A stretch of DNA of 64,000 bases from Noviherbaspirillum massiliense JC206 (lineage in GTDB: Bacteria > Pseudomonadota > Gammaproteobacteria > Burkholderiales > Burkholderiaceae_D), in NCBI RefSeq assembly GCF_000312045.1, contig NZ_HE978634.1, positions 1,286,842-1,350,841 on the forward strand, in the 5' to 3' direction. The notes below the pieces were generated by a model. The model saw only the letters and a program-made list of their open reading frames with translations, was not told where the DNA came from and searched no databases. Positions 8,930 to 64,000 of the stretch are shown here, piece after piece; the first letter of the stretch is position 1, and every line of letters begins with the position of its first letter. Both the position numbers and the translations under genes were made by a program.

Positions 8930-10051
8930 TTATTGGAGAACGGATTTTACAGCGGCGACCGCGCGTTCCACGTCGCTTTCAGTCATGGCGGCAAACATCG
9001 GAAGCGTCACGATCTGACGGCCAACGCGCTCGGCAATCGGGAACATGCCTTCCCGGAAGCCGCGTTCGCGGTACAGCTTGAACAGGTGGATGGGCGGGTA
9101 GTGGTAGCCAATGCCGATGCTCTTGTCCATCATGCGCGCCATGAATTCGGCGCGCGGCATGCGCTCGGGCAGCACCAGCTGAAACATGTGCCAGTTGGAG
9201 TTTTCGAAATCGGCGACTGGCAGCTGGGCACCATAGCGCGCTTCGAAATCCGGCCCGAAGCTGGCGAAATATTGGCGAGCAAGCATGCGGCGCTTTGCCG
9301 TGATTTCCTCGATATGCGCAAACTGGCCGAGGCCGATCGTCGCCGCGATATCAGTCATGTTGAACTTCCCGCCGAGCACGTCGACCTCGATGCCGTCAAA
9401 GCCACTGCGGGTGACGCCCTGCAGCCGGTATTTCTCCGCCAGGCGGGCCTCGTCGGCATTGTTCAGCACCAGGCATCCGCCTTCCGAGGTGGTGATGTTC
9501 TTGTTCGCCTGAAAGCTGAAGGACACGAAGTCGCCGAAGGCGCCGATGCGCCGGCCCTTCCAGGACGATCCGAGCGCCTGGGCGGCATCTTCGATGACAC
9601 GCAGGTTGTGTTTCTGCGCAATGGCGTACAGGCGATCCATATCCACCGGCAGGCCGGCCAGATAGATGGGAATGATGGCCTTGGTGCGCGGAGTAATCGC
9701 GGCTTCCACCTTGTCCAGATCGATGTTGCGGGTGACGGGATCGATATCGGCAAATATCGGCGTGGCCCCGACTTCAAGAATGACATTCGAGGTGGCGACC
9801 CAAGAAATCGGCGTGGTGATCACTTCATCGCCCGGGCCGATGCCAGCAATGCGCAAGGCGATCTCCATGGTGCAGGTGCCGGAGTTGAAGGTGCGTACCA
9901 GCCTTCCGCCAAAGTACTCGGAAAGTTGCGCTTCGAATGCCTGTACCTTGGGCCCGCTGGTGATCCAGCCGGAACGCAGAACATCGGCGACCGCGACGAT
10001 GGTGGCTTCATCGATGGTGGGGCGGGAAAAGGGCAGAAAAGGTACGCTCAT
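8930..10051 (-). CDS. arnB: UDP-4-amino-4-deoxy-L-arabinose aminotransferase ArnB
   Basis: A 373-residue DegT/DnrJ/EryC1 aminotransferase that uses glutamate and PLP to convert UDP-4-keto-arabinose to UDP-L-Ara4N. Recognisable ArnB features are FSRPTIDEATI and LRSGWITSGPK at the N-terminus, FNSGTCTMEIAL, EDAAQALGS, and the PLP-lysine segment FSFQANKNITTSEGG. It follows the small flippase gene by 51 bp and precedes arnC by 15 bp. Length and motifs match the family end to end. Confidence 0.95.
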   Translation of the reverse strand: MSVPFLPFSRPTIDEATIVAVADVLRSGWITSGPKVQAFEAQLSEYFGGRLVRTFNSGTCTMEIALRIAGIGPGDEVITTPISWVATSNVILEVGATPIFADIDPVTRNIDLDKVEAAITPRTKAIIPIYLAGLPVDMDRLYAIAQKHNLRVIEDAAQALGSSWKGRRIGAFGDFVSFSFQANKNITTSEGGCLVLNNADEARLAEKYRLQGVTRSGFDGIEVDVLGGKFNMTDIAATIGLGQFAHIEEITAKRRMLARQYFASFGPDFEARYGAQLPVADFENSNWHMFQLVLPERMPRAEFMARMMDKSIGIGYHYPPIHLFKLYRERGFREGMFPIAERVGRQIVTLPMFAAMTESDVERAVAAVKSVLQ

Positions 10052-47548: not shown

Positions 47549-47630
47549 TCATCGGCAGAGTTTGAGATAGATAAAAGCCCGACACGCCGGCAGAGCGTGG
47601 GGGAGACAACAAAATCAAAGGGTGGAGAAC

Positions 47631-48434
47631 ATGAAAGTCGTCCTGTTTTGCGGAGGGATGGGCACGCGCTTGCGCGAGCATTCGGATACGATACCGAAGC
47701 CTCTGGTCAACATCGGCTCGCGACCGATCATCTGGCATCTCATGCGCTATTACGCGCACTATGGCCACAAGGATTTCATCCTCTGTCTCGGCTTTCGCGG
47801 CGAGATGATTCGCGATTACTTCCTCAACTACAACGAGTGCATGTCGAACGATTTCACCTTGTCGGGAAACGGGCGGCAAATCGAACTGCACTCCAGCGAT
47901 ATCCACGACTGGCGCATCACCTTCGTCGACACCGGCGTGCATTCGAACATCGGGCAGCGCCTGATGAAAGTGCGCAAGCATCTCGAAGGCGAGCGGGCAT
48001 TTCTCGCCAACTATGCCGACGGCTTGTCCGACGTTCCGATCAATCGCGTCATCGCCGAATTCGAAGACAAGCGCGCCGTAGCCACGTTTGTCGGCGTCAA
48101 TGGCTGGCACAGTTTTCACACCGTCGACGCCACGCCTGAGGGCGTCGCCACTCGTATCGACGGCCGGTCGACCAGGGAATTATTGATCAACGGCGGCTAC
48201 TTCGTTTTGCGCCAGGACATATTCAATTACATCGACCACGGCGACGAACTGGTGGAGCAGCCATTCCAGCGCCTGATTCAGAAGCGCCTGCTGACGGTGT
48301 ACCGTCATTCGGGCTTCTGGCGCGCCATGGATACCTTCAAGGACAAGATCACCTTCGATCGGATGGAGGCGCAGGACGATTGCCCCTGGATGGTATGGAA
48401 GAAGCCGCTGGGGGCGCAGCAATGCTACCGCTGA
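47631..48434 (+). CDS. rfbF: Glucose-1-phosphate cytidylyltransferase (RfbF/DdhA)
   Basis: A 267-residue nucleotidyltransferase making CDP-glucose from glucose-1-phosphate and CTP. The activation loop VVLFCGGMGTRLREHSDTIPKPL, ILCLGFRGEMIRDYF, ANYADGLSDVPI (metal-binding Asp) and the C-terminal YRHSGFWRAMDTFKDK are hallmarks of RfbF rather than RmlA. The ATG at 47631 lies just after GGTGGAG; a GTG three codons earlier is possible. It is the first gene of the coupled operon and overlaps the next gene by 13 nt. Confidence 0.93.
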   Translation: MKVVLFCGGMGTRLREHSDTIPKPLVNIGSRPIIWHLMRYYAHYGHKDFILCLGFRGEMIRDYFLNYNECMSNDFTLSGNGRQIELHSSDIHDWRITFVDTGVHSNIGQRLMKVRKHLEGERAFLANYADGLSDVPINRVIAEFEDKRAVATFVGVNGWHSFHTVDATPEGVATRIDGRSTRELLINGGYFVLRQDIFNYIDHGDELVEQPFQRLIQKRLLTVYRHSGFWRAMDTFKDKITFDRMEAQDDCPWMVWKKPLGAQQCYR

Positions 48435-49090
48435 ATCTGGGTGCGGCTTCCTGGCACCGCCTGGAAGTGCTCTGCATCGGCGCCCATTGCGATGACATAG
48501 AAATCGGCTGCGGCGCCAGCATTCTTGCATTGCAAGAGCACTATCCGGAGTGCCGCATCCACTGGCTGGTGCTCACATCGAATTCGGAACGCCGCGAGGA
48601 GGCGATCGCAGCAGCACGGACTTTGGTGAAGGGGCCGTCGCGCGGAGAAGTATTCATCGGGGAACTGCCGGATGGACTGCTGCCCGCGCATTTCACCGAA
48701 GTAAAGCAGTTGTTCGAGAAGGTCAAGCGCAGCGTCGACCCGAATCTCGTCTTCACGCACCGCGAGGCCGACCGCCATCAGGACCACAGCCTGGTGAGCC
48801 AGGTGACCTGGCAAACCTTTCGCGACCACATGATCTGGGAGTACGAGATTCCCAAGTACGAGGGCGATCTCGTGACGCCGAATATGTATGTGCCCCTGCC
48901 GGTTTCCCTTGCGAAAAGGAAGATCGATATCGTGATGCGCTCCTTTCCCTCCCAGGCGAGCAAATCGTGGTTCACGGCGGAGAATCTTTCCGGGCTCATG
49001 CGCCTGCGCGGGCTGGAATGCCGGTCCGCGAGCGGCTTTGCCGAGGCCTTCCATTGCAGGAAGCTGGTGTTTTCCGGGAGCGGGGCATGA
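48422..49090 (+). CDS. PIG-L family deacetylase
   Basis: A 222-residue LmbE/PIG-L zinc deacetylase. The zinc-binding motif HCDDIEIGCG (AHxDD type) lies at about residues 25-34 and the third ligand in FTHREADRHQDHS near residue 115. The family removes acetyl from N-acetyl sugars such as GlcNAc-lipids, mycothiol precursors or sugar nucleotides. Its place between rfbF and rfbG, coupled on both sides (13-nt and 4-nt overlaps), suggests action on a sugar of the same polysaccharide; the substrate is unknown. Confidence 0.9.
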   Translation: MLPLNLGAASWHRLEVLCIGAHCDDIEIGCGASILALQEHYPECRIHWLVLTSNSERREEAIAAARTLVKGPSRGEVFIGELPDGLLPAHFTEVKQLFEKVKRSVDPNLVFTHREADRHQDHSLVSQVTWQTFRDHMIWEYEIPKYEGDLVTPNMYVPLPVSLAKRKIDIVMRSFPSQASKSWFTAENLSGLMRLRGLECRSASGFAEAFHCRKLVFSGSGA

Positions 49091-50172
49091 ATCCGGGCTT
49101 CTGGTCGAACAAGCGGGTGTTCATCACTGGCCATACCGGTTTCAAGGGAAGCTGGCTTTGCCTGATGCTGCAGTCCCTCGGTGCGCGCGTGGCGGGTTAT
49201 GCGCTGGAGCCGCCGACGCAGCCCAGTCTTTTTTCGCTCGCCCGCGTGGGCGAACTGGTCGAGTCCACCACCGCAGACATCCGGCATCTCGACATGCTGT
49301 GCGAAAACATGCATGCCTTCCGGCCCGATGTGGTGTTTCATATGGCGGCGCAATCGGTCGTTCTCACCTCTTACGAAGATCCGGTGGATACCTATTCCAC
49401 CAACGTCATCGGCACGGTCAACACGCTCGAGGCGGTGCGCCGCATGCGGCGTCCCTGCGTCGTCGTTAATGTGACGACCGACAAGTGCTATGAGAACAAG
49501 GGCTGGGTCTGGGGATATCGCGAGTGCGATACCCTGGGCGGACGCGATCCTTATTCCAACAGCAAGGCCTGCGCCGAATTGGTCGGCCAAAGCTATCGCG
49601 ATTCCTTCTTTCCGCCCGACCGGTTCGGCGAGCATGGCGTGGCGATTGCGAGCGCCCGGGCCGGCAATGTGATCGGCGGAGGCGACTGGACGGCGCGCCA
49701 GCTGATTCCCGAGACGATCGCCGCATTCGTGAAGGCCCAACCTGTCATGCTGCGCCATCCGGATGCGGTGCGTCCGTGGCAGCATGTGCTCGACTGCCTT
49801 GCCGGCTACATGCGACTGGCCGAAGCCCTTGCGGAAGACGCGCCGGGATATGCCGGCGAATGGAATTTCGGTCCGGCCGATGCCGACTCCCGGCCCGTTT
49901 CCTACATCGTCGAATCGCTCGCTGCCGAGTGGGGAATCGAACAGCCGTGGAAGCCCGATGCTGCGATCCATGCCCCCGAAGAGCGCCAGCTGCGGCTGGA
50001 CGTCAGCAAGGCCGCGAACCTGCTTGGCTGGAGCAGCCGTCTGTCACTCGATGAAGGTTTGCGCTGGGTTGCAGGCTGGTATCGGCAATATCACCGCGGC
50101 GCGGATGCGCGAGCGCTGTGCCGCGATCAGATCGCCGGCTATTTCGAACGTGCCGGAAGCCGGAAGCCATGA
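49087..50172 (+). CDS. rfbG: CDP-glucose 4,6-dehydratase (RfbG/DdhB)
   Basis: A 361-residue extended SDR enzyme converting CDP-glucose to CDP-4-keto-6-deoxyglucose. NAD motif ITGHTGFKGSWL (about 13-24), HMAAQSVVLTSYEDP, the catalytic VNVTTDKCYENKGW segment, and RDPYSNSKACAE with the Tyr-x-x-x-Lys pair are all as in RfbG. GNVIGGGDWTARQLIPE and RPWQHVLDCLAGYM follow. Start and stop overlap the neighbouring genes by 4 nt each (ATGA). Confidence 0.95.
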   Translation: MNPGFWSNKRVFITGHTGFKGSWLCLMLQSLGARVAGYALEPPTQPSLFSLARVGELVESTTADIRHLDMLCENMHAFRPDVVFHMAAQSVVLTSYEDPVDTYSTNVIGTVNTLEAVRRMRRPCVVVNVTTDKCYENKGWVWGYRECDTLGGRDPYSNSKACAELVGQSYRDSFFPPDRFGEHGVAIASARAGNVIGGGDWTARQLIPETIAAFVKAQPVMLRHPDAVRPWQHVLDCLAGYMRLAEALAEDAPGYAGEWNFGPADADSRPVSYIVESLAAEWGIEQPWKPDAAIHAPEERQLRLDVSKAANLLGWSSRLSLDEGLRWVAGWYRQYHRGADARALCRDQIAGYFERAGSRKP

Positions 50173-50723
50173 AGTTCACCGAATGCGAAGTGACGGGCGC
50201 CCGGGTTGTCGATCCCGCGCCGCACCAGGATGCAAGAGGGCGTTTCATGCGTGCCTGGTGCTCGCGCGAGCTTGCCGACGCCGGAATCGACTTCGTGCCG
50301 CTGCAGGCCAACATGGGCTACAGCGTGCGGGCAGGCACGATCCGCGGACTGCATTACCAGAGTGATGCGGCGCCGGAGGCGAAGCTCGTGCGCTGCACCC
50401 GCGGCGCGGTATTCGATGTGGTCGTCGACCTGCGCCCTTCCTCGCCCACCTACCTGAGCTGGTTCGGAATCGAGCTGAGCGCCGACAACGGACGCATGCT
50501 GTACGTGCCGGAAGGCTGCGCGCACGGCTGCCAGTCACTCCTCGATGACACCGAAATTCTCTACATGACGTCGGCCTTCTACGCCCCGGATGCGGTACGC
50601 GGCGCGCGCTTCGACGATCCGGTCATCGGCATTCGCTGGCCGATGCCGCCGACACTCGTCTCAGCACAGGACCGGCAATGGCCCCTCATCGAACGGAACA
50701 TCGAAACAGGAGTTACCCCATGA
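50169..50723 (+). CDS. RfbC-like sugar-nucleotide 3,5-epimerase (cupin)
   Basis: A 184-residue RmlC-type cupin. The catalytic His is in TIRGLHYQ, the partner Asp in VVVDLRPSSPTYLSW, and the Tyr acid in the SAFYAPDAVRGARFDDP segment; YVPEGCAHG is the cupin turn. RmlC acts on dTDP-4-keto-6-deoxyglucose, but here the enzyme follows rfbG, so its substrate is probably the CDP-4-keto-6-deoxy sugar, as in ascarylose-type pathways. Whether it epimerises C3, C5 or both is not visible. Confidence 0.88.
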   Translation: MKFTECEVTGARVVDPAPHQDARGRFMRAWCSRELADAGIDFVPLQANMGYSVRAGTIRGLHYQSDAAPEAKLVRCTRGAVFDVVVDLRPSSPTYLSWFGIELSADNGRMLYVPEGCAHGCQSLLDDTEILYMTSAFYAPDAVRGARFDDPVIGIRWPMPPTLVSAQDRQWPLIERNIETGVTP

Positions 50724-52090
50724 CCATTCAAGGCCTCAACAGCCCGATCCAGAGCATGTCGGTCTATCACTTGCTGCAGGCGCGCGAAGCAGAGCGGCGT
50801 CCGATCCGCGTCGGGGTCATCGGCGCGGGCGCAACGGGCCGCGCGATCGCATTGCAACTGGGAACCCCGGTACCCGGCATGCGACTGGCAGCCATCTCGA
50901 ACCGGACACCCGAACACGCCGAGCGTTCTTTCCGCGAGGCCGGCATCCGCGACTGGCAATCGGCGCAAAGTGCTGCCGCGGCAGAGGCGAAGATCGCCCG
51001 CGGCATTCCGGTGCTGACCGACGACCCGCAGGTGCTCACGCGCTGCGGGGCAATCGATTTGATTGTCGAGGTGACCGGGACCGTTGACTTCGGGGCAAGC
51101 GTGGTGCTGGACGCAATCGCGCACGGCAAGGATGTGGTGATGGTCAACGCCGAACTCGATTCTCTGGTCGGACCAATCCTGAAGGCCAGGGCTGACCAGG
51201 CTGGCGTGGTGCTGACCCACACCGACGGCGATGAGCCGGGCGTGGCGATGACACTGTTCCGCTATGTGCAGTCGGTCGGATTGCGCCCTGTCGCCGCGGG
51301 CAACATCAAGGGCATGGTCGATCATTACCGGACACCCGATACCCAGCGCAGTTTTGCCGAGAAGCATGACCAGGATGTAAGAAAGGTCACTTCCTTCGCC
51401 GATGCCACCAAGCTGTCGATGGAGACCTGCGTGCTTGCCAATGCAACAGGCTTCGGCGTCGGCAGGCGCGGCATGTACGGCCCGGCGTGCGGCTATGTGC
51501 GCGAACTGGCAAAGCTGCTGCCGCCTGAAGCGATGCTGAGCGGCGGCATCGTGGATTACTCGGTAGGCGCGGCGCCGCATACGGGCGGCTTCGTCATCGT
51601 GCATGAAGAGAATCCGTACAAGCAGACGCAGCTGGCCTATTACAAGCTCGGCGACGGCCCGTTCTACGTCTTTTACACGCCGTACCACCTACCGCATATC
51701 CAATTGCCATCGACGATCGCACGTGCCGCGCTGCACCGCGACGCGACCGTTGCGCCGATCGCGGGGCCATCCTGCGAAGTGGTGGCCGTGGCCAAACGCG
51801 ATCTGAAGGCGGGCGAGCGGCTGGATGGCGTCGGCGGCTTCTGCGCATACGGCTTGATTGAGAACCATCGCACGGCCCGCGAAGCCAATGCGCTGCCGAT
51901 TGCCATGTCGGATGACTGCGTGTTGTTGCGGGACATTTCGCGTGACGAGGTGATCAGCTTCGACGACGTGAGAATGCCACCCAGGCGCCTGGTCGACGAT
52001 CTGTGGCAGGAACAGATGCGACGCTGGCCGCTGGAAGCGCGGTCGGGCGCAGGCCGCGGGCAGGAGGCCATCGCCGAGGCGCTCATCTGA
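50720..52090 (+). CDS. SAF-domain homoserine-dehydrogenase-like oxidoreductase (COG4091 type)
   Basis: A 456-residue protein with an N-terminal Rossmann domain (RVGVIGAGATGRAIALQL, about 44-61), the middle segment VEVTGTVDFGASVVLDAI and THTDGDEPGVAMTLFRYV, and a C-terminal SAF domain (EVVAVAKRDLKAGERLDG, from about 352). It belongs to the group annotated as predicted homoserine dehydrogenase with SAF domain, whose reaction is not established for cluster members. A true hom gene lies at 14198, so this copy is not needed for threonine. Coupling to rfbC by ATGA ties it to nucleotide-sugar synthesis; a redox or carbon-branching step is possible. Confidence 0.85.
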   Translation: MTIQGLNSPIQSMSVYHLLQAREAERRPIRVGVIGAGATGRAIALQLGTPVPGMRLAAISNRTPEHAERSFREAGIRDWQSAQSAAAAEAKIARGIPVLTDDPQVLTRCGAIDLIVEVTGTVDFGASVVLDAIAHGKDVVMVNAELDSLVGPILKARADQAGVVLTHTDGDEPGVAMTLFRYVQSVGLRPVAAGNIKGMVDHYRTPDTQRSFAEKHDQDVRKVTSFADATKLSMETCVLANATGFGVGRRGMYGPACGYVRELAKLLPPEAMLSGGIVDYSVGAAPHTGGFVIVHEENPYKQTQLAYYKLGDGPFYVFYTPYHLPHIQLPSTIARAALHRDATVAPIAGPSCEVVAVAKRDLKAGERLDGVGGFCAYGLIENHRTAREANALPIAMSDDCVLLRDISRDEVISFDDVRMPPRRLVDDLWQEQMRRWPLEARSGAGRGQEAIAEALI

Positions 52091-52165
52091 GCGAACTGGT
52101 GGATGGGAGCAGGCTTGCAGCAACAAGAACAAGTCGGACATCACAATTCGGGGGAGACATATAAA

Positions 52166-53491
52166 GTGGCAAACATCGTTGTTCTCGGCACCGGCATGGC
52201 GGGATTCGGTGCGGCATACCGGTTGAATGCCGAAGGCATCCGCCCGGTGCTGTATGACAAGGCGAACCATTTCGGCGGACACACCGCCTCGTTCCGCGAC
52301 GACAAGGGCTTCCTGTTCGACCTCGGCCCGCACATCTCCTTCACCAAGGATCCGCGCATACAGGAGCTGTTCGCCAAGTACGTTGATGACAAGTACGAAG
52401 CGGTGCAGGTCAAGCTCGACAACTATTGGCGCGGGCTGACGCTGACCCATCCGGTACAGCTGCACCTGAACGGCTTGCCCCCCGACCTGATCGTCGAGAT
52501 CGTGACCGATTTCCTGCAGGAGCACAACGCGCCCGACAGACCGATCGCGAATTACGAGGACTGGCTTGTCGCCAGCTATGGGCGCAAGTTCGCCGAGCTG
52601 TTTCCCATGCAGTATGGCCGCAAGTACCACACCACTACCGCATCCAACATGACGACCGACTGGCTCGGCCCGCGCATGTACCGGCCGAGCGTGCAGGAGT
52701 TGCTGCGCGGTGCGGTGGCGAAATGGCAACCGGAAGTGCACTACATCACGAATTTCCGCTATCCGACGCACGGCGGGTTCGTGTCGTACATGAACGACCT
52801 GCCCAACATGGCCGACATCCGGCTGCGGCATGAAGTGATTTCCATCGATCCCCGGGAACGCGTGGCACGCTTCGCCAACGGCAGAGTGACGAAATACGAC
52901 GCGCTGGTTTCATCCATCGCGCTCCCCGAGCTGCTGCCCATGATCGCGGGTGCGCCGCAGGACGTCGTCGAGGCGTCGCAGCGCCTGGCGTGCACCACCT
53001 GCGTGCTGGTCAATATCGGCGTCAACCGCGAGGATCTGTCGGAAGGGCAGATCAAGTACATCTACGACGACGACATTGCCTTCACCCGCCTGAGTTTTCC
53101 GCACATGCTGTCGCGGCACAATGCGCCGGACGGTTGCGGCAGTATCCAGGCGGAAGTCTATTACTCCCGGAAGTACAAGCCCCTCACCGAATCGACAGAC
53201 GCCATCATCGAACGGGTGATCGCCGACCTGCGGCGCACCGGCATCCTGCGCGAGTCCGACGAGATCCTGACGCGGCACGCCGCCACCGTACAGTATGCGA
53301 ATGTCATCTTCGACCTCGACCGCACCGAGGCACTGAAAACCGTCCACGGCTATCTCGATGACGTGGGGATCCACTACTGCGGACGCTACGGCGACTGGGG
53401 TTACATGTGGACGGATGAAAGCTTCATCAGCGGCGAGCGTGCGGCGGAGGCTGCGCTGTCGGGGGGCGCTGCCGGGAGCCGGGGAAAATGA
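52166..53491 (+). CDS. FAD-dependent amine-oxidase/UDP-galactopyranose-mutase-like protein
   Basis: A 441-residue flavoprotein. The FAD-binding motif is IVVLGTGMAGFGAAYRL directly at the N-terminus, followed by FGGHTASF and FDLGPHIS, in the style of the NAD(P)-binding-8/amine oxidase group that includes protoporphyrinogen oxidase and Glf-like proteins of polysaccharide clusters. The C-terminal segment GIHYCGRYGDWGYMWTDESFISGERAAE closes the FAD site. The GTG at 52166 is preferred because GGGGGAG lies 9 nt upstream and the Rossmann fold begins at once. Its stop overlaps the next glycosyltransferase (ATGA). The reaction is not predictable. Confidence 0.85.
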   Translation: MANIVVLGTGMAGFGAAYRLNAEGIRPVLYDKANHFGGHTASFRDDKGFLFDLGPHISFTKDPRIQELFAKYVDDKYEAVQVKLDNYWRGLTLTHPVQLHLNGLPPDLIVEIVTDFLQEHNAPDRPIANYEDWLVASYGRKFAELFPMQYGRKYHTTTASNMTTDWLGPRMYRPSVQELLRGAVAKWQPEVHYITNFRYPTHGGFVSYMNDLPNMADIRLRHEVISIDPRERVARFANGRVTKYDALVSSIALPELLPMIAGAPQDVVEASQRLACTTCVLVNIGVNREDLSEGQIKYIYDDDIAFTRLSFPHMLSRHNAPDGCGSIQAEVYYSRKYKPLTESTDAIIERVIADLRRTGILRESDEILTRHAATVQYANVIFDLDRTEALKTVHGYLDDVGIHYCGRYGDWGYMWTDESFISGERAAEAALSGGAAGSRGK

Positions 53492-54732
53492 GAAGCGGGA
53501 AGCGCCGTGGGCCCGAGTTTTCGGGGCATGGCAACAGCTCGCTCGGCATCATTGCGCTGGTTCCGGATTATTGGAGTGGCGTCGTGACGCTCCGGCACCA
53601 GGTGTTGCAGCGGCTGGCAAAGTATCACAGGGTGGTATGGGTTGAACCGGCCGGTGATTGGCGCGAATTCTTGAGACCATCCAGCCCTCGCTTCCTGGCA
53701 AGGGACCGCTGGTCGGAGCCGACGCCTTCGCTCGCGGTCCTGAATACCGGCTGCCTGCGTCCGCAGCTCCATCGTCCGGCATGGCTTGGCGCAGCGAGTT
53801 TTCGGGCGCGACTGACGGCGGCGCGCAGACGCCTGATTGCACAAGGCGCCACCCGGATCGCGCTGTATATCTGGCGCGACGAGTTCGCTGAAGCACTTCA
53901 TCATGTCGACCACGATTTCAGCTGCTATCACATCGACGACGAATACAGCTTTTCCGACAAGGACTTGCCCAACTCGCCGCGGGAGCTGAGCCTGTTGCGG
54001 CACGTCGACCAGGTCATCGTTCACTCGCCAGCCCTGCTGGGCAAGAAGGGCGGCATCAATCGAAACACGGCACTCATTCCCAACGGCGTGGACTTTCAGC
54101 TGTTCTCGAAGCCGCACGAAGAGCCGGCCGACATGGCGTCGATACCTCGCCCGCGCATCGGCTATGCCGGTGTAATCAAGAAGCAGCTCGATCTCGATCT
54201 TCTCGTCCGTCTCGCCGGCGCCCGGCCCCAGTGGTCATTCGTCATGGTCGGGCCGATTGGAAATGTTGCCGGCAAGGAGAGGCAGCTTGCGGCGCTGCGA
54301 CAGATGCGCAACGTCCATTTTTTGGGCGGCAAACCGGTGGAGCGGCTGCCCGGTTACATCCAGCATTTCGATGTCTGCCTGATGTGCTACGAAGTCAACG
54401 ACTATACCCGGTACATCTATCCGCTGAAGCTGCATGAATACCTTGCAGCCGGGCGTCCGACCGTGTCCTCGCCGATCGAGTTGATACACGGCTTTGCGCA
54501 CGCTGTATCGATTGCAAGCGATGAGGCGCAGTGGCTGGCTGCAATCGAGTCCGGGCTGGCGGAGAGCGATCGTGAGGGCGAGGCCGCGCAATCACGGCGC
54601 GCAGTGGCGCGGGCGAACGACTGGAACGTACTGGTAAAGGAGATTGCGGATCTGTTTGCCTCGCCGCAGTCGATGACGAAAGGCTGGCCGCCGCAACAAC
54701 TTCAGGAGCCGGCCAGTTTTTTCCAGGCATAG
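53488..54732 (+). CDS. Glycosyltransferase, GT4-like (TuaH-like)
   Basis: A 414-residue GT-B glycosyltransferase. The N-terminal half has LVPDYWSGVVTLRHQVLQRL and CYHIDDEYSF; the C-terminal half has LIPNGVDFQLF, RIGYAGVIKKQLDLDLL, FVMVGPIG and the donor-binding YPLKLHEYLAAGRPTVSS. It adds a sugar to the growing repeat unit at the cytoplasmic face; donor and acceptor are unknown. Coupled to the flavoprotein gene by ATGA. Confidence 0.9.
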   Translation: MRSGKRRGPEFSGHGNSSLGIIALVPDYWSGVVTLRHQVLQRLAKYHRVVWVEPAGDWREFLRPSSPRFLARDRWSEPTPSLAVLNTGCLRPQLHRPAWLGAASFRARLTAARRRLIAQGATRIALYIWRDEFAEALHHVDHDFSCYHIDDEYSFSDKDLPNSPRELSLLRHVDQVIVHSPALLGKKGGINRNTALIPNGVDFQLFSKPHEEPADMASIPRPRIGYAGVIKKQLDLDLLVRLAGARPQWSFVMVGPIGNVAGKERQLAALRQMRNVHFLGGKPVERLPGYIQHFDVCLMCYEVNDYTRYIYPLKLHEYLAAGRPTVSSPIELIHGFAHAVSIASDEAQWLAAIESGLAESDREGEAAQSRRAVARANDWNVLVKEIADLFASPQSMTKGWPPQQLQEPASFFQA

Positions 54733-54795
54733 CTTCTCGAGATTCTTGATTATGAATGACAGCAATTCTGCTTACGTTTCTGTTGGGAGATCCGC

Positions 54796-55704
54796 ATGAG
54801 AGCGCGCAAAGTAGTCATTGGCCTTCCGGTCTACAACGGCCAGAAATACATTGGTGCGGCGATCGAAAGTCATCTTTCGCAATCCTTCGGCGACTTCGAT
54901 CTGGTGATATCAGACAACGGTTCGACGGATGCTACGCCGGATATCTGTGACGACTACGCCGGCAAGGACAGCCGGGTCAAGTACCTTCGCTCGCCGCAGA
55001 ACCGGGGAATACTTTGGAACCACCGGCGCGTGATGGAGGCGATCTCGAGCCCGGACCAGTATTTCCGCTGGGCGGGCGGAGATGACATTCTGGAGCAGGG
55101 GCTGCTGGAAGGAATGGTTCAGGTGCTGGACCGCCGGCCGGAAGTCGTCGCAGTCATGCCCAACACCAGGAATATCGACGAACTGGGTCAAATCATCGGA
55201 TCAATGGACAGAAGTCTTGACGTACAGTCACCCGACGTATTCGAACGCGCGCACAAGATCCTGATGGCCGATTACCAGCATGTGGTGGCGTATGGCCTGC
55301 TTCGCGCCTCGACGCTGAAGCAAATGCGGACCGGTCCCAACTATGTGGGCTGGGATGAGATTTTCATATGGGAGCTGGGGCTGCGGGGCAAGATCGTTCA
55401 TATGCCGGGGCCGGCACTGCTGAGGCGCTTTCATCGCGGTTCGATCTCGCGAGTGAAGACGGTGAAGGAAATGCGGAAGTGGGTGGAGCCCGATGCAAAA
55501 GGGGCGGGCATGAATTTCCCGCACTGGACCTGGACCTATGAACGCGTGCGGGCTCTGCTGGGCGCACCCGTTTCGGGACGGGACCGGCTCCGAATCGCGC
55601 GACTGCTCGCGCGCGATGTGCGTTGGCGAAGAGTCAAGCTCGCCCGTGACGTGACGCAGGCAGCACGGCGCACGCTTCGCCTGTCCGACGAGTACACGTT
55701 CTGA
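54796..55704 (+). CDS. Family 2 glycosyltransferase
   Basis: A 302-residue GT-A enzyme. The start KVVIGLPVYNGQKYIGAAIESHL, then FDLVISDNGSTDATPDICDDYA and the acidic WAGGDDILEQG motif identify GT2. No membrane helix is present. GGGAG precedes the ATG by 7 nt. It lies 63 bp after the GT4-like gene and 11 bp before the duplicated-domain membrane protein. Confidence 0.92.
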   Translation: MRARKVVIGLPVYNGQKYIGAAIESHLSQSFGDFDLVISDNGSTDATPDICDDYAGKDSRVKYLRSPQNRGILWNHRRVMEAISSPDQYFRWAGGDDILEQGLLEGMVQVLDRRPEVVAVMPNTRNIDELGQIIGSMDRSLDVQSPDVFERAHKILMADYQHVVAYGLLRASTLKQMRTGPNYVGWDEIFIWELGLRGKIVHMPGPALLRRFHRGSISRVKTVKEMRKWVEPDAKGAGMNFPHWTWTYERVRALLGAPVSGRDRLRIARLLARDVRWRRVKLARDVTQAARRTLRLSDEYTF

Positions 55705-55715
55705 GGATCCTGCCT

Positions 55716-57071
55716 ATGTCCGTCGTACTCGGGAGCTATCTCAAGACCACTTTCGCGTGTGTGCTCGTGGTGTGTCTCGCGCTGCTCGGCGTCGTCCTTT
55801 CCGTGCGCAGTTTGCCCGATGCCGCAGCCGCAGTCATTGCTGCGCTGGGTTTGATTGCCGCCTTTTGTGGCGCCGTTCTTGCGTGCGCGGGACTGCTCGT
55901 GCTTGACCGCTACCAGCGTGGTGTGCACGGCAAGCGCGATCTTTTCCTCGAACTCAACCGCACCCGCGAGCCGGCTGCGATCAAAACAGCGGCGCCCCGG
56001 CGCGTGTCCGGCCTGCGTCGCTGGCTGGCAAGACGCCTGCTGGGGCACGATCTGGTAGTGGGAGACCTGGTCGAGGTCAGAAGCTGGGCCGAGATACGCG
56101 CGACACTCGACGAGCAGGGATGCCTGGAGCAATTGCCCTTCATGCCGGAAATGCTGGCGATGTGCGGCCGGCGCGCTTACGTATTCCGCTGTGCGCATCG
56201 CCTGTTCGACTACCGGAAAAGTCGAAGGATGCGGCACATGGATGGCGCAGTATTGCTGGTCGACGCGGTTTGCAGCGGTTCGGCTCACGGAGGCTGCGAG
56301 GCCTCCTGCCACACGCTCTGGAAAGCCGCATGGCTGAAAAGAATCGAGCCGGCGGAAGCGCCAGCATCGCCCGATCGTCCGGCGTCGGTGCCGGATAGGG
56401 CTGTTTTGCAGTTCGGCACTCGGGCTCCGCGCTACGCATGTCAACTGACGCAGCTGCACGCTGCATCGCGTCCCATCGGCAACTGGAGCGCGGTCAATTT
56501 CCTCCGTCCGCTCATCTCGGGCAATGTGGCACCGGCAGCGTTCATCGTTGGCTGGCTGACGCATCTTTTCAACCTGCTGCAGCACTACCGGGGGGGAGTC
56601 AGTTTTCCGACATTCGAAGAGGTCATGCCGATGGACCGGCATTCCGAGGAGATTCACCTGCAGGCGGGCGACCGTGTCACGGTCCGGTCGTCTGCTCAGA
56701 TTCGCGCAACGCTGAATGATCAGCTGATCCATCGCGGAATGGGATTCGAGGACGACATGCTGAAACACTGCGGGGGCCAATATTGTGTCCAGGCAGAGGT
56801 CAGGAAACTGATCGACATCGTGACCGGCGAAATGCGCACGATGAAAACGCCGGCGTATTTGCTGCATGATGTCAACTTCTCGGGCGAGAGGCAACTCTTC
56901 AATGCGCAGTACGAGCCTCTGTTCTGGCGCAGCGTGTGGTTGCAGAAGGTGCGCAGCGAGGAAGAGGGAGGCAATCGGCCCGCTCCGGCAGCCGAGATCA
57001 CAGTCGTCAGCCCTGTTGTCGTCCATGCCCGTGCCGAGCATGCGGAGCAGCCGATTTCCCGCGCTGGCTGA
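55716..57071 (+). CDS. Membrane-anchored protein with two copies of an uncharacterised (Cys-motif) domain
   Basis: A 451-residue protein with two N-terminal membrane helices (about 9-30 and 38-63) and a cytoplasmic or periplasmic part holding an internal repeat. Copy 1 (about 116-210) reads GDLVEVRSWAEIRATLDEQ, LPFMPEMLAMCG, then CSGSAHGGCEASC and WKAAWLKRI; copy 2 (about 317-412) reads GDRVTVRSSAQIRATLNDQ, GFEDDMLKHCGG, then FWRSVWLQKV, without the Cys cluster. I recall related two-domain proteins annotated hypothetical in polysaccharide and natural-product clusters, without a known function. It lies 5 bp before the flippase gene. The cysteine/His set could bind a metal; this is inference. 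Confidence 0.8.
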   Translation: MSVVLGSYLKTTFACVLVVCLALLGVVLSVRSLPDAAAAVIAALGLIAAFCGAVLACAGLLVLDRYQRGVHGKRDLFLELNRTREPAAIKTAAPRRVSGLRRWLARRLLGHDLVVGDLVEVRSWAEIRATLDEQGCLEQLPFMPEMLAMCGRRAYVFRCAHRLFDYRKSRRMRHMDGAVLLVDAVCSGSAHGGCEASCHTLWKAAWLKRIEPAEAPASPDRPASVPDRAVLQFGTRAPRYACQLTQLHAASRPIGNWSAVNFLRPLISGNVAPAAFIVGWLTHLFNLLQHYRGGVSFPTFEEVMPMDRHSEEIHLQAGDRVTVRSSAQIRATLNDQLIHRGMGFEDDMLKHCGGQYCVQAEVRKLIDIVTGEMRTMKTPAYLLHDVNFSGERQLFNAQYEPLFWRSVWLQKVRSEEEGGNRPAPAAEITVVSPVVVHARAEHAEQPISRAG

Positions 57072-57076
57072 CACAC

Positions 57077-58531
57077 ATGTCGACCGCACGCAAAGCGATA
57101 TCGGCCCTGAAGTGGAGCGTGGCTGCCAAACTGGTCGTTCAAGCCGTGAGCTGGGCCGGAACGCTTGTCGTTGTCCGGCTGCTCAGCCCGGAGGACTACG
57201 GGCTCATGGCCAAGGTATCGGTGATCTGCGTCATCGCGGCGGCCATTGCCGAACTTGGCCTCGGCGCTGCCATCGTGCGCTGGACCGACCTGGCGCGCGA
57301 TGACCTGCGGAAGATTTACGGCGTCTCGCTGCTGTTCTCTGCAGGCCTTACGGCAGCCATAGCTGCCGCCGCGCCGCTTCTGGCGCAACTGTTCCATGAG
57401 CCGCGCCTTGCGTGGCCTATCGCGGTCGCCTCGCTGCAGATCATCATAGGCGCGGTTGCGATCATACCCAGCTCCCTTGCTGCCCGCGACCTGTCTTATC
57501 GTGGCCTGGCCAAAGTGGAAATGGCTGCCGGGACAACCGGCATCGCGACAACCCTGCTGTTGGCCCTGATCGGCGCTGGCGTATGGGCATTGGTGCTTGG
57601 CACACTGTTCGCGGCGCTTGCCCGCAGCACCGCATTGCTGGTCTACGGCGAGTGCGTGCGGCCGCTGTTTTCGGTGCGCGGCATCGGCGAGCACCTGAGA
57701 TTCGGCCTGACGCTCGTGTGCAACAGGGTGAGCTATTTCATCGTCACGCAGTCGGATGTGCTGATCGGTAGTTCATTTTTGTCGACGACCGAAATCGGCC
57801 AGTACTCGGTCGCTCTGCAGCTGGCAACACTCCCGATGGCGAAAGTGATGGGGATCATCAATCAGGTCGGCCTGTCAGCACTGGCGCGGGAGCAGAGCGA
57901 CCCTGCATGGGTACGCAACGGTGTGCTCAGGTCCATGCGTCTCATGGCGCTGATTGCCTTTCCCGCCCTGTGGGGGATTTCGGCAGTGGCCCCGGAGCTG
58001 GTACACGTGCTGTTCGGGGACAACTGGCTGCCGGCGGTGCCGGCGCTGGCCATCCTGCCACTCATTGTGCCCATCCGCATGCTGTGCAGCGTCCTGTTTA
58101 CCGCCTCACTGGCGCTCGGGCACCGGCAACTGGACCTGCGCAACACCATCATCAACCTCGTGTTGCTTCCAGCCGGATTTTTTGTGGGAGCGCATTGGGG
58201 GCTACTCGGTCTATGTGCGGCGTGGCTGGTGTCGGTACCGATCGCTTACTCATTCAGCGTGCCTGGTGCACTCCGGCGCATCGGGGTTCGCATGATCGAC
58301 CTCCTGCCGGAATGCGCCCCGCCGGCCATAGCCGCTGCGCTCATGTATGCGGCGGTCACCGCCGCTCGCCCGGCGCTCCATGCACAGCCCGCGATCCTGG
58401 CACTCGGTGCGCTGATCGCATTGGGGGCTGCAGTCTATTTTGCCATCATGGCGCTTATTTCCCGGCGCCATCTGATCAGCATGCGCAGCTTTGCCCGCGC
58501 CGTGCGCGGCGGTACACCGACGACGGCCTGA
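57077..58531 (+). CDS. Oligosaccharide/lipopolysaccharide flippase, Wzx/MOP family
   Basis: A 484-residue protein with 12-14 hydrophobic helices. The N-terminal KWSVAAKLVVQAVSWAGTLVVVRLLSPEDYGLMA is the classic PST/MOP flippase start; FIVTQSDVLIGSSFLSTTEIGQYSVA and FPALWGISAVAPELVHVLFGDNW are also typical (WzxC-like). It would move the lipid-linked repeat unit across the inner membrane. It is the last gene of the plus-strand operon, which ends convergently against the lipoprotein gene 37 bp away. Confidence 0.92.
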   Translation: MSTARKAISALKWSVAAKLVVQAVSWAGTLVVVRLLSPEDYGLMAKVSVICVIAAAIAELGLGAAIVRWTDLARDDLRKIYGVSLLFSAGLTAAIAAAAPLLAQLFHEPRLAWPIAVASLQIIIGAVAIIPSSLAARDLSYRGLAKVEMAAGTTGIATTLLLALIGAGVWALVLGTLFAALARSTALLVYGECVRPLFSVRGIGEHLRFGLTLVCNRVSYFIVTQSDVLIGSSFLSTTEIGQYSVALQLATLPMAKVMGIINQVGLSALAREQSDPAWVRNGVLRSMRLMALIAFPALWGISAVAPELVHVLFGDNWLPAVPALAILPLIVPIRMLCSVLFTASLALGHRQLDLRNTIINLVLLPAGFFVGAHWGLLGLCAAWLVSVPIAYSFSVPGALRRIGVRMIDLLPECAPPAIAAALMYAAVTAARPALHAQPAILALGALIALGAAVYFAIMALISRRHLISMRSFARAVRGGTPTTA

Positions 58532-58568
58532 CGGGGCTTCGACAGTCGCCTCGCCAATCGCAGCGCAG

Positions 58569-59351
58569 CTAGAGGCTTCCTGCCTGAAATGACTTCCATC
58601 CGAAGCGCTCGGGCGACGCATTTTCCACGGGCCAGAAGCCGAGTCCGGGCTGACCGGAGGGCCAGACGGTGCCGCCGGCTGACGAAATATTCACCGCGGC
58701 GACCGTATTGCCATTCAGTTTTACCGTAATGAGGTTACCGCTAATTTCCGCGCGCATTACATCTCCGTCTTTCGGGATCGGGGCACTGCCCGCGCCGGGG
58801 TCATACAGGGGCGTGTAATTGCCTAACGGGCCGTTCCATCGCACGACGGCGAGATAGCCGCGCAAACCCCACAGGACTTCGTAACCGTGTGCGTCGTGAG
58901 GGCCGATGGCAAACCGCAGCAGCAGCTCCACTTCATGCGATGCATCCGAATATCCGTTCGCGAGGTAGACGGTACCCTGCGCGTATTGGTTGGCGCTGAT
59001 GTTCTGAAACGATTTGCTCAAGTGCGCGATGCTGTCGTCGTAGCGTGATACTGAAGCGCCCGAGAGCACTGACGCATAAACCTTGCCTGAAGCCGATTGC
59101 GGGTCGTTCCAATCGAGTCCTGAAGTCTTGCCAGTGGTCCACTTGCCGCTTTCCCGAAGCGGGTTTTCGTTCAGGCTGAAGTCGGTCGAATAGGATCCAT
59201 CCGAAGCGGGCGGGCAATTTGGCGACGAGACGCAACTGTCTCCGGCCTCAGTTTGTTTTGGGGAGGACGGTGTGTCGGCTACACCGGAACTGCAGGACGC
59301 CGTTGAGATCGCGATTGCCGCCCAGATTGTTGGAAAAATGCGGGGTTGCAT
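58569..59351 (-). CDS. Lipoprotein with concanavalin-like domain
   Basis: A 260-residue protein starting at MQPRIFPTIWAAIAISTASC, a lipoprotein signal with lipobox STASC, so it should be lipidated. A Ser/Pro/Cys-rich spacer (SSGVADTPSSPKQTEAG, CVSSPNCPPASD) leads to a strand-rich domain (SYSTDFSLNENPLRESGKW through ERFGWKSFQAG) that looks like a jelly-roll/LamG-type carbohydrate-binding module. AGGG lies 9 nt before the ATG at 59351. The frame is open further upstream, but those residues show no signal. It is last in the minus-strand polysaccharide operon; a role in binding or exporting the polymer is inferred. Confidence 0.75.
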   Translation of the reverse strand: MQPRIFPTIWAAIAISTASCSSGVADTPSSPKQTEAGDSCVSSPNCPPASDGSYSTDFSLNENPLRESGKWTTGKTSGLDWNDPQSASGKVYASVLSGASVSRYDDSIAHLSKSFQNISANQYAQGTVYLANGYSDASHEVELLLRFAIGPHDAHGYEVLWGLRGYLAVVRWNGPLGNYTPLYDPGAGSAPIPKDGDVMRAEISGNLITVKLNGNTVAAVNISSAGGTVWPSGQPGLGFWPVENASPERFGWKSFQAGSL

Positions 59352-59536
59352 GTCGATGCCCTTGATGAAGGCTTTTACGTGATGATGATATGAGACTTCA
59401 GTGCGAGCAATCCGCATGATGCGTTCCTGCATCTGCACTGCGAAGAAATCCGGGGCGGCGGATGGCATCACGGTGGAACGGACAAGGCGTTTCCTGATAG
59501 AGACGCTTTGAGCCTGTAGAACCGTGAAAGCAAGCA

Positions 59537-60703
59537 TTATTGACAACGAGGTTGCCCATCTTCGCGCTTGTTGGATGTTACGGGCATGCGCAAGTTGTTC
59601 AGAACCCTTGGCAATAGATCCAGCGCCAATGCTTTTTTCATTTTCTGCCCCCCAAGATGCCTGATCGCCGCGATGCTTCCATTCAGCGTGCGCAGGTTGA
59701 AGGCGAGGATGCCGCTGCGCTCGCGCCGATGCGACATCCAGTCCTGTTTGTAGGGATCGTCGCCACTCAGGTAGTCCACTTCCCGCACCCGCTCCACGTC
59801 GATGGCATGGCGCATCATGTGCGCGGTCAGGATGGTGCCGACCGAGGATCTCGAAAAGCGCTCGTCGTAGGCCAGCTTGTAAATCGATGCAACGCCGCTG
59901 CCGACGAGCCAGATCTGCGCCGCAGCCGGTTCATCGTTGATGTAGGCGATCCCGAGCCGCAGCCATCCCTGCTCGGCGCTGGTCTGGAGCAGTCCCGGAA
60001 TAAATGCCGGAATTGCTTCGGGTACCTTCCAGCTGGCGCGATAAACCTGCTGGTATGCGGCTATGCCCCTCGCGATATCGGCAGGAGAGGAAATGATCTC
60101 GAGGCGCAGGCTGCCATCGGATTCCAGCTGCCTGGTTTTCCTTGTCAGCGTATTGCGCAGCCTTGACGGCAGGGAGGCGAAATACTCCTGGTAGGATCGC
60201 CCCTTGACGTCCAGATACCAGTTCCCGAAGCAGAAGTAGGTCTGGACCGCCATGCCTGCGCTGCGAAAGGCCTCCGTCAATTTTCTCGAGGAGGGCGTGC
60301 CGGAAGCGAGCGGATGCAGGTCGATGGCATGCCAGCATGGCGTGTCGCGCGCGATTGCCCTTGCCAGCAATTCCATGTCCCGGGCCCGGCATTCCGCACC
60401 AGGCGCAACAATCGGGCCGAACATGGGACTATAGAAGTTGGCGGCCGCAGCAAGTCTGCGGGAGTGGGCTGAGCACCAGCTTGAGCTCTCCTGGCGCATC
60501 GGCAGCACCAGGAGCGGCTTGCCGCTCACGCTGGATTCGAGGACATAGATGCGCAGCTCCGCATCGGCAAATACGGTGGCGGCCAGGTTCCGGAACCATG
60601 GCAGGCTGAAGAACACGCCTTGCGCCTCGCTGGCACGGGCGAACAAGTCCATGCAGGAATCCGGCAGCTCCTCGAAGCCGGAATAGATGGCGACCCTGCT
60701 CAT
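59537..60703 (-). CDS. GNAT-fold acyltransferase (CelD/BcsL-like)
   Basis: A 388-residue protein with a CelD/FemAB-type acetyltransferase fold in its second half: RLRNTLTRKTRQLES, then YRASWKVPEAIPAFIPGLL, the GWLRLGIAYINDEPAAAQIWLV strands and VGTILTAHMMRHAIDVERVREVDYL. The N-terminal half has SLPWFRNLAATVF, also seen in this group. Likely it acylates a sugar amine or a precursor in the polysaccharide pathway. It follows tviC by 22 bp. Confidence 0.82.
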   Translation of the reverse strand: MSRVAIYSGFEELPDSCMDLFARASEAQGVFFSLPWFRNLAATVFADAELRIYVLESSVSGKPLLVLPMRQESSSWCSAHSRRLAAAANFYSPMFGPIVAPGAECRARDMELLARAIARDTPCWHAIDLHPLASGTPSSRKLTEAFRSAGMAVQTYFCFGNWYLDVKGRSYQEYFASLPSRLRNTLTRKTRQLESDGSLRLEIISSPADIARGIAAYQQVYRASWKVPEAIPAFIPGLLQTSAEQGWLRLGIAYINDEPAAAQIWLVGSGVASIYKLAYDERFSRSSVGTILTAHMMRHAIDVERVREVDYLSGDDPYKQDWMSHRRERSGILAFNLRTLNGSIAAIRHLGGQKMKKALALDLLPRVLNNLRMPVTSNKREDGQPRCQ

Positions 60704-60725
60704 GCTGTTTGGACAATCCGGATCA

Positions 60726-61792
60726 TCAGACCGGAGCCGGAACGAGATGCCGCCTGTACCAGCCCAGGGTCTTCTTCAAGCCCTCTCCGATCCGGTAAGC
60801 CGGGGCATATCCCAGCAGCTCCTGCGCCTTGGAAATGTCGGCCTGCGAATGACGCACATCGCCGGCACGGAAGGCGCGGTATTGCGGGCGGTGTTCCTCC
60901 AGATCGGGAATGCTGTCCACCAGAAGCATGCGCATGGCTTCATAGAGCTGCTTCAGCGTGGTGCGGTCACCCAGCGCCACGTTGTAGGTCTGGTTCACCG
61001 CTTCCGGGTTGTCAGTCAGGGCGGCGAGCAGGTTGATCTGCACGACATTGTCGACGAAGCAGAAGTCGCGGCTGGTTTCGCCATCGCCGTTGATGAACAC
61101 CGGCTGACCGGTCATGAGCGCCGCGATCCAGCGCGGAATGACGGAGGCATAGGCGCCGTTGGGATCCTGGCGCGGACCGAAGACGTTGAAGTAGCGCAGC
61201 CCGATCGTCTCCATGCCGTAGCAGCGGGCAAACACCTCGGCATACAGCTCGTTGACATACTTGGTCACCGCATAGGGGGAGAGCGGCTTGCCGATCACCG
61301 CCTCCGTCTTGGGCAGGGCAGGGTGGTCGCCGTAGGTCGAGCTGGAGGCGGCATAGATGAAGCGCTTCACCCTGGCGTCGCGCGCTGCCACCAGCATGTT
61401 GAGGAAGCCGGTGACGTTGTTCGCGTTCGTCAGGATCGGGTCGTTGATGGAACGCGGCACCGATCCCAGCGCGGCTTCATGCAGCACGTAATCGACCCCG
61501 CGGCATGCGAAGGCGCAGTCCTCCAGGGACCGGACGTCGCCTTCAATAAAGCGGAAGTTCGCCCATGCGCGGGACCCCACCAGCTCCCTTACCTGCTCGA
61601 GGTTATGGCGGTGGCCGTTGGAAAAGTTGTCGAGCCCGGTGACCTTCTGGTTCAGCCGGAGCAGGGCTTCGAGAAGATTGGAGCCGATGAAGCCGGCAGT
61701 CCCCGTGACCAGCCAGTGGTATTGATGCTGTCCCAGATGCTGCAGGACGGCTTCATATCTGCTTGCGCGCGCGTCGCCGCCTTCATGCTGCA

Positions 61793-61793
<1 letters not shown>
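60726..61793 (-). CDS. tviC: UDP-N-acetylglucosamine 4-epimerase (TviC/WbpP type)
   Basis: A 355-residue extended SDR epimerase. The NAD motif [19 protein letters not shown] (about 26-44), [40 protein letters not shown] with the Ser-Thr-Tyr and the [13 protein letters not shown] motif follow WbpP/TviC, which interconvert UDP-GlcNAc/UDP-GalNAc or their uronic acids. The preferred start is the ATG at 61793, overlapping the tviB stop by one base. With TviB it gives UDP-GalNAcA, as in Vi antigen synthesis. Confidence 0.92.
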
Positions 61794-63172
<1,379 letters not shown>

Positions 63173-63386
63173 GGGCGTCTCCTTCTTGTTGGATTGAGTA
63201 TCGTCAAGGTCGGCTGGTGACGCTAAGTATTGCTAGGCAGTATGTTGTCGTTTTGATCAAACTCAAGGGAAGGAACTTTGACAAGGGCACTATTTCATGA
63301 CTCGCCAGCCACCCATGTTTTGCTCGATTCATGCCGCCAAGCAAGGGGAACAGGCGATCTGGGAAATCCAATGGAGGGAGGTCGTG

Positions 63387-63638
63387 GTGCAGTCGCTCGA
63401 GAAAATCAAACAACTTATTGCCGATACATTGGGACTGGGGAGCCGCAGTGCAGCAATGCATGCCGACACGCCATTGCTGGGCCATCTTCCCGAGCTGGAT
63501 TCCATGGCGGTGTTGAATCTGATTACCGCCATGGAAGACCGCTTCGGCATCATGCTGGAAGATGAAGACATCAGTGCGAGCGCGTTCCGTACGGTCGGCA
63601 GCCTCTCCGCGCTGGTCGATGCCAAGCTGGCGCAATGA
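63387..63638 (+). CDS. Acyl carrier protein, exosortase-A locus type
   Basis: An 83-residue acyl carrier protein: VQSLEKIKQLIADTLG, then LPELDSMAVLNLITAMEDRFG with the phosphopantetheine Ser in LDSM (about residue 43), DEDISASAFRTVGSLSALV. The start is a GTG at 63387 (or 63384) because GGAGGGAGG lies immediately upstream; an in-frame ATG at 63297 would add 30 residues with no ACP character and no ribosome site. The next gene starts within its stop (ATGA). ACPs are regular members of exosortase-A exopolysaccharide loci. Confidence 0.85.
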   Translation: MQSLEKIKQLIADTLGLGSRSAAMHADTPLLGHLPELDSMAVLNLITAMEDRFGIMLEDEDISASAFRTVGSLSALVDAKLAQ

Positions 63639-64000
63639 ATCGCGGACCACGTCCATCACCGGCGCAAGCCTTCTTCCTCGATGCAGCGCCCGGAAGGCGC
63701 TTCTGCCTTTATCATCCTCCGGCATCGAACCGGGAATGCGCCGGCGCATTCCTGTACGTTCACCCCTTCGGTGAAGAGATGAACCTGTCGCGAAGGATGG
63801 CTGCCATGCAGGCGCGCGCACTGGCCGACGCCGGCTTCGGCGTGCTGCAGATCGATCTTTACGGCTGCGGCGACAGCGACGGTGAACTGCGGGATGCCAG
63901 CTGGCAGATCTGGAAGCTGGATCTTGCTGCTGCGGCAGAGTGGCTTGCAAAGCATGTTGCGCCACCCATCTCCTTATGGGGCTTGCGCCTCGGCGCCACG
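63635..64000 (+). CDS. Exosortase A system-associated alpha/beta hydrolase, type 2 (3' truncated by window)
   Basis: The first 122 residues of an alpha/beta hydrolase are visible. YVHPFGEEMNLSRRMAAMQARALA and LQIDLYGCGDSDGELRDASW are the N-terminal landmarks of the TIGR03101-type hydrolase found in exosortase-A (XrtA/PEP-CTERM) polysaccharide loci; WGLRLGAT at the window edge starts the nucleophile-elbow strand. The nucleophile itself is outside or at the edge. Coupled to the ACP gene by ATGA. The assignment is from recalled family sequence. Confidence 0.85.
   Translation, partial: MNRGPRPSPAQAFFLDAAPGRRFCLYHPPASNRECAGAFLYVHPFGEEMNLSRRMAAMQARALADAGFGVLQIDLYGCGDSDGELRDASWQIWKLDLAAAAEWLAKHVAPPISLWGLRLGAT

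Follow-up and report, generated by a model that had tools for sequence, protein, structure and literature searches.

C0, a tandem-duplicated protein encoded between a sugar cassette and a Wzx-type flippase in Noviherbaspirillum massiliense

The C0 gene, its internal duplication, and its fold

We analyzed a 64,000-nucleotide stretch of the Noviherbaspirillum massiliense JC206 genome (contig NZ_HE978634.1; referred to here as the window), in which a row of sugar cassette, glycosyltransferase, and flippase genes includes the gene for a 451-residue protein, C0 (Table 1). From the NTP transferase through C0 to the flippase, all of these genes lie in one direction. The C0 open reading frame (ORF) starts 11 bases past the end of the upstream glycosyltransferase ORF, and 5 bases separate its own end from the flippase ATG. 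C0 is a tandem duplicate of one domain of approximately 100 residues, accompanied by a conserved linker. The motif GDLVEVRSWAEIRATLDEQ (residues 116 to 134) has its counterpart in GDRVTVRSSAQIRATLNDQ (residues 318 to 336), an ML..CG segment is found in each copy (residues 146 to 151 and 348 to 353), and the copies end in WKAAWLKR (residues 202 to 209) and WRSVWLQK (residues 404 to 411). Copies 1 and 2 share 30 of 95 residues (BLASTP E value of 1e-11), and their ungapped score of 98 compares with a mean of 24 and a maximum of 46 in 300 shuffles. A comparison of hidden Markov models (hhalign) aligned copy 1 with copy 2 at 99.8% probability (E value of 7e-28), and six control comparisons, in which the copies were paired with three unrelated families, reached 0.2 to 0.4%. 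The internal repeat noted in the initial annotation thus scores far above chance.

Table 1. Features of C0 and of the surrounding cassette (window coordinates)
Feature	Coordinates	Strand	Basis or remark
NTP transferase	47622..48434	+	closest match, glucose-1-phosphate cytidylyltransferase; 234.7 bits, under the curated cut-off (300.25)
PIG-L family hydrolase	48380..49090	+	
CDP-glucose 4,6-dehydratase	49087..50172	+	451.8 bits, cut-off 278.45
RmlC-like sugar epimerase	50169..50723	+	
DRL (DXR-like) NAD(P)-dependent oxidoreductase, PF21135, with SAF domain	50678..52090	+	
FAD-dependent oxidoreductase	52103..53491	+	reference matches only the window and L002 to L007
Group-1 glycosyltransferase	53488..54732	+	
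Family-2 glycosyltransferase	54796..55704	+	
Two-copy protein C0, 451 aa	55716..57071	+	ATG start; relatives found and aligned
Predicted membrane hairpin, two helices, residues 3-70	55722..55925	+	structure model, hydropathy, charges
Copy 1, residues 116-212	56061..56351	+	small barrel in model
Copy-1 C150	56163-56165	+	24/25 rows
Copy-1 cysteines C186, C194, C198	56271..56309	+	25/25 rows
Conserved linker, residues 240-270 (Y-x-C-Q-x-T ... G-N)	56433..56525	+	C242 in 25/25 rows
Copy 2, residues 318-411	56667..56948	+	fold as copy 1; two Cys lost in the window's clade
Wzx-type flippase (Polysacc_synt_3)	57077..58531	+	

The AlphaFold2 model of C0 contains two small barrels, one per copy, which are probably SH3-like. 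They present the same order of fold elements, and this, together with the clear homology, argues against a pairing of unrelated folds. The whole protein likewise remained outside every family in Pfam and NCBIfam: the Pfam scan gave a chance-level match alone (StcE domain, E value of 0.21, below its cut-off), the NCBIfam scan gave none, and the sequences of solved structures gave weak matches only (E values of 0.32 for C0, 0.2 for the family profile, and 0.43 for copy 1). Among the papers that searches of one open-access library retrieved with the terms used, none named a protein recognizable as a member of this family, and we take C0 to represent a family of accessory proteins that has yet to be described, in a locus of a familiar type.

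The best Foldseek match, for two models of the family, was the C-terminal SH3-like domain of the nitrile hydratase beta subunit (PF02211; E values of 9.4e-4 for the L021 model and 3.9e-3 for the model of the window protein), which has a short G-D-x-V motif in common with C0. Membership in that family was rejected at the sequence level, as none of 25 C0 members matched PF02211 at E values up to 1 and hhalign, run against 23 of 24 C-terminal domains collected from other genomes, gave 6% and 18% over only 13 to 15 columns. The REP domains of Mind bomb, which are tandem SH3-like repeats, also count among the closest known systems. Type B dihydrofolate reductases, another group of SH3-like proteins, were dropped when no link to C0 was found in the part of the source considered (PMC9835603).

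The KOW domain is an SH3-like barrel as well, and C0 could be conceived of as an operon regulator, for example an antiterminator of the RfaH/NusG type. Such antiterminators are defined by a NusG N-terminal domain plus a KOW motif, and neither yielded a Pfam match among the 25 members at E values up to 1. The position of the C0 gene within a same-strand gene row and the hairpin predicted in the window's clade (see below) also speak against regulation, which we consider very improbable.

Conserved cysteines and a clade-specific hairpin

Conservation was counted in an alignment of 25 rows, with L012 (a near-duplicate) and L007 (which contains Ns) set aside. The copy-1 stretch CSGSAHGGCEASC (residues 186 to 198) had been read initially as a Cys/His metal site, and its three cysteines are invariant, but position 191 is His in only 17 rows, with Tyr in 6 and Phe in 2. 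Judged from the aligned sequences, the conserved cluster is cysteine only, and histidine 191 is no part of the conserved site. A CDGSH iron-sulfur protein, whose motif (C-x-C ... C-D-G-x-H) has an invariant His, was rejected on the basis of the Tyr or Phe in 8 of 25 rows and of the lack of a CDGSH Pfam match at E values up to 1. Further cysteines are conserved in part (C164 in 19 rows and C352 in 20). The reported loss of the cluster from copy 2 holds for the window's clade, but all 19 rows outside it carry two further copy-2 cysteines, a pair present in 0 of the 6 clade rows. In the six clade rows, the absence of this pair coincides with the absence of C164 and with the presence of the hairpin. 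The invariant residues of C0 are mostly hydrophobic, Gly, Pro, or Cys, and invariant Asp, Lys, and Gln also occur. A divergent member without C150 was observed in L043 (genome G556; match at about 9000 to 10000), with a Wzz-type and a GNAT gene nearby.

The two model helices (residues 3 to 32 and 35 to 70) fall in blocks with mean pLDDT (predicted local distance difference test) values of 92 to 98, and the Kyte-Doolittle 19-residue mean of C0 reaches a maximum of 2.83. Helix 2 is followed in the window protein by 13 Lys and Arg versus 4 Asp and Glu, and by strongly positive charge in all six hairpin-bearing rows. By the positive-inside rule, both ends of the hairpin, and hence both domains, probably face the cytoplasm. 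Cysteines in that compartment would be reduced, so that a metal site or reactive thiols would be likelier than disulfides.

The hairpin is found only in the window's clade (6 of 25 rows; support, 100/100), and one change on the tree explains it. The start codons of 15 rows (L014 to L028) were set at the last ATG preceding the first motif, where one was near, and the upstream frames of all 19 nonclade rows were checked for a hidden hairpin; the highest 19-residue mean there was 1.08 (five rows had too little upstream frame for scoring), versus 2.25 to 2.85 in the six clade rows. The designation "membrane protein" accordingly suits the window protein, with its two helices, but not the 19 other rows; on the evidence of the alignment, the core is a two-domain protein without a hairpin and is not intrinsically a membrane protein.

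Distribution and gene partners of C0

C0 is single copy in the source genome and was absent from 14 further genomes of its genus. Counting the source genome, it occurs in 2 of 60 relatives and in at least 3 of 398 genomes of the phylum. Further occurrences comprise six metagenome-assembled loci, six records of a plasmid collection (four from Mesorhizobium, one from Bosea, and one from Nonomuraea), at least 6 of 75 genomes in the family of genome G197, and 9 of 198 genomes in the family of genome G344. The alignment searches scored a set number of candidates per genome (4 in the phylum sample, up to 23 in the G197 family, and 8 in the G344 family), which makes these counts lower bounds; a protein-query repeat in the G344 family, with scoring of every listed candidate, returned the same nine genomes. 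Whole-genome searches covered the window's phylum, and the actinomycete case, in which the same cassette lies beside C0, is the single Nonomuraea record. The plant symbiont Mesorhizobium ciceri likewise has C0 next to the cassette. Single-domain relatives were not encountered, as copy 1, used by itself as the query in two plasmid searches, returned the same six records. A viral or phage origin was rejected, since 50,697 phage records contained no relative and none of 88 candidate stretches from IMG/VR was confirmed to carry C0. The G+C content is 0.61 to 0.63 in window positions 48001 to 64000 versus 0.57 to 0.62 in the preceding 48 kb; together with the absence from the 14 same-genus genomes, this fits, weakly, an acquired locus.

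We surveyed the neighbors of C0 in 27 stretches, representing 26 distinct loci (window included) and the near-duplicate L012. Reference matches were obtained for the flippase in 23 stretches (window included), as expected of an accessory of a Wzx/Wzy locus, and for the NTP transferase in 20, PIG-L in 20, the epimerase in 18, DRL in 10, a C-methyltransferase in 10, and DUF4910 in 8. Among the 23 stretches with a called C0 gene, the flippase directly follows C0 on the same strand in 10 and directly precedes it in 2, and the two coding sequences overlap by 4 bases in Mesorhizobium. This proximity, the hairpin of the window's clade, and complete co-inheritance with a flippase-like gene in the G197 family would suit a flippase partner that licenses or gates Wzx on recognizing the lipid-linked unit with its branched sugar. 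However, the flippases belong to differing families (Polysacc_synt_3 in the window and L009, and a subthreshold MatE match only in L029) and are nonadjacent in six G197-family loci. In the G344 family, the flippase query matched 29 of 198 genomes, of which 22 lack C0, and missed two of the nine C0 genomes; this weakens any exclusive C0-flippase coupling, and we regard such a partnership as unlikely.

Co-inheritance with PIG-L was assessed at an ortholog threshold of E values up to 1e-20. In the G197 family, a PIG-L ortholog occurs in exactly the six genomes where C0 was found. In the G344 family, PIG-L and C0 each occur in nine genomes, eight of them in common (exceptions, G556 and G543), and PIG-L is a closer partner there than the flippase. 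The Fisher P values for co-occurrence (1.6e-12 and 5.0e-9) are overstated, given that these are related genomes in which the locus travels as a unit. Distances across 18 genomes correlated between C0 and the NTP transferase (0.875), epimerase (0.796), PIG-L (0.734), and flippase (0.709), and these values are descriptive only, as the cassette is inherited together.

The co-inheritance with PIG-L, the top rank of the NTP transferase among these correlations, and the invariant Cys, Asp, Lys, and Gln of C0 are also what would be anticipated if C0 were itself a pathway enzyme, that is, a cysteine- or metal-dependent catalyst acting on a nucleotide sugar at a step common to both branching modules described below, perhaps with PIG-L. 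This alternative is possible but doubtful, given that the invariant residues are mostly of other kinds, that one whole clade has lost the copy-2 cysteines, and that SH3-like barrels serve more commonly in binding than in catalysis.

The composition of the cassette was tabulated for 22 genomes chosen for having both C0 and the cassette, with further stretches fetched where the cassette was distant; the set stands apart from L007 (which has the cassette), the duplicate L012, and the Bosea, G556, and G035 loci. PIG-L is present in all 22 genomes and the NTP transferase in 21, the remaining genome having a piece of the latter at a contig end. DRL is present in 11 and the C-methyltransferase in 10, and none has both in the fetched stretches; in the range fetched for G197, both are missing. 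The DRL oxidoreductases (e.g., in the window, L033, L039, L062, and L063) thus replace a C-methyltransferase of the Methyltransf_13/14 type, and the pattern requires at least four changes on the C0 tree, with the near sisters L017 and L020 differing. Because C0 is kept with either branching module, it follows the constant core of the cassette and not the branching enzyme. To judge from the family names, both modules could yield a branched sugar, either by C-methylation or by a DXR-like reductive rearrangement or plain reduction.

Proposed role and related loci

We tentatively favor the view that C0 is a dedicated, cytoplasm-facing accessory of a cassette for a branched, CDP-linked (or similar) deoxysugar that feeds a Wzx-type flippase. 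C0 would work in the cytoplasm, and in the window's clade the hairpin would anchor it to the membrane. Copy 1, with C150, C186, C194, and C198 as a putative metal site (zinc or an iron-sulfur cluster), may keep the conserved activity, and copy 2 and the linker may bind partner proteins. As an adaptor, the whole protein would bring the sugar enzymes or a glycosyltransferase close to the flippase and would hand over the unusual sugar. The initial annotation had placed C0 in repeat-unit handling at the membrane. The frequency of flippase genes in the loci agrees with that proposal, but because PIG-L and the NTP transferase stay steady across flippase families, a role in the making or channeling of a branched sugar has no less support, although it is not proven over the other.

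Several observations weigh against a dedicated accessory. The conserved cysteines and polar residues could instead form an active site. In the G197 family, the L029-type flippase occurs in the same 6 of 75 genomes as C0; being as strictly co-inherited as PIG-L, it indicates that the locus travels there as one unit, with no special partnership for PIG-L. The PIG-L distance correlation is barely above that of the flippase, and several branches beneath the four module swaps are without strong support. C0 occurs without a PIG-L ortholog in 3 of the 26 distinct loci, namely those of the Bosea plasmid (search confined to the plasmid), G035 (a genome that is 86% complete), and G556 (genome searched). 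Conversely, G543 (L060) has the NTP transferase, PIG-L, and epimerase, and C0 was not found there with either query.

A bolder extension of the accessory reading, which we consider rather improbable, would make C0 the founding member of a novel class of sugar-specific, cytoplasmic, cysteine-metal double-barrel proteins that are indispensable, with PIG-L, in branched-deoxysugar synthesis and couple finished units to any flippase, the window's clade being membrane anchored by the hairpin and stripped in copy 2.

Surface polysaccharide loci are rich in hypothetical genes, and C0 can be assigned to a defined and portable cassette of sugar genes in two phyla, in which a constant core is combined with two exchangeable branching enzymes. 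G543, with the cassette enzymes and no detected C0, provides a natural test case. The DXR-like oxidoreductases of such loci are candidate makers of branched sugars. The DRL catalytic domain of the window's 50678-52090 product is shared with the DXR-II/DRL and DLO1/DLO2 oxidoreductases, two DXR-II-related clades of which are called uncharacterized oxidoreductases in the portion of the source consulted (PMC3847144); the window's DRL differs in its setting, as it sits in a polysaccharide cassette. The DUF4910 loci likewise place an uncharacterized protein beside a nucleotidyltransferase, an epimerase, and a methylase, although DUF4910 is an M28-peptidase-like protein, unlike C0, and the neighborhood section of that paper names no C0-like protein (Das et al. 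2014, PMC4000134).

Two further observations concern the flippase and its surroundings. Flippase-like matches in two genomes (G484:C32:417716-419146 and G519:C1:226795-228126) contain one in-frame stop each as read, reflecting either an alignment that runs past the gene end or real stops. Just past the window's flippase, positions 58572 to 59546 of the minus strand encode a product of 325 residues that seems, by eye, to have a lipoprotein signal and that has no Pfam match at E values up to 0.001; a homologue lies in the same place in L002, L004, L005, and L006.
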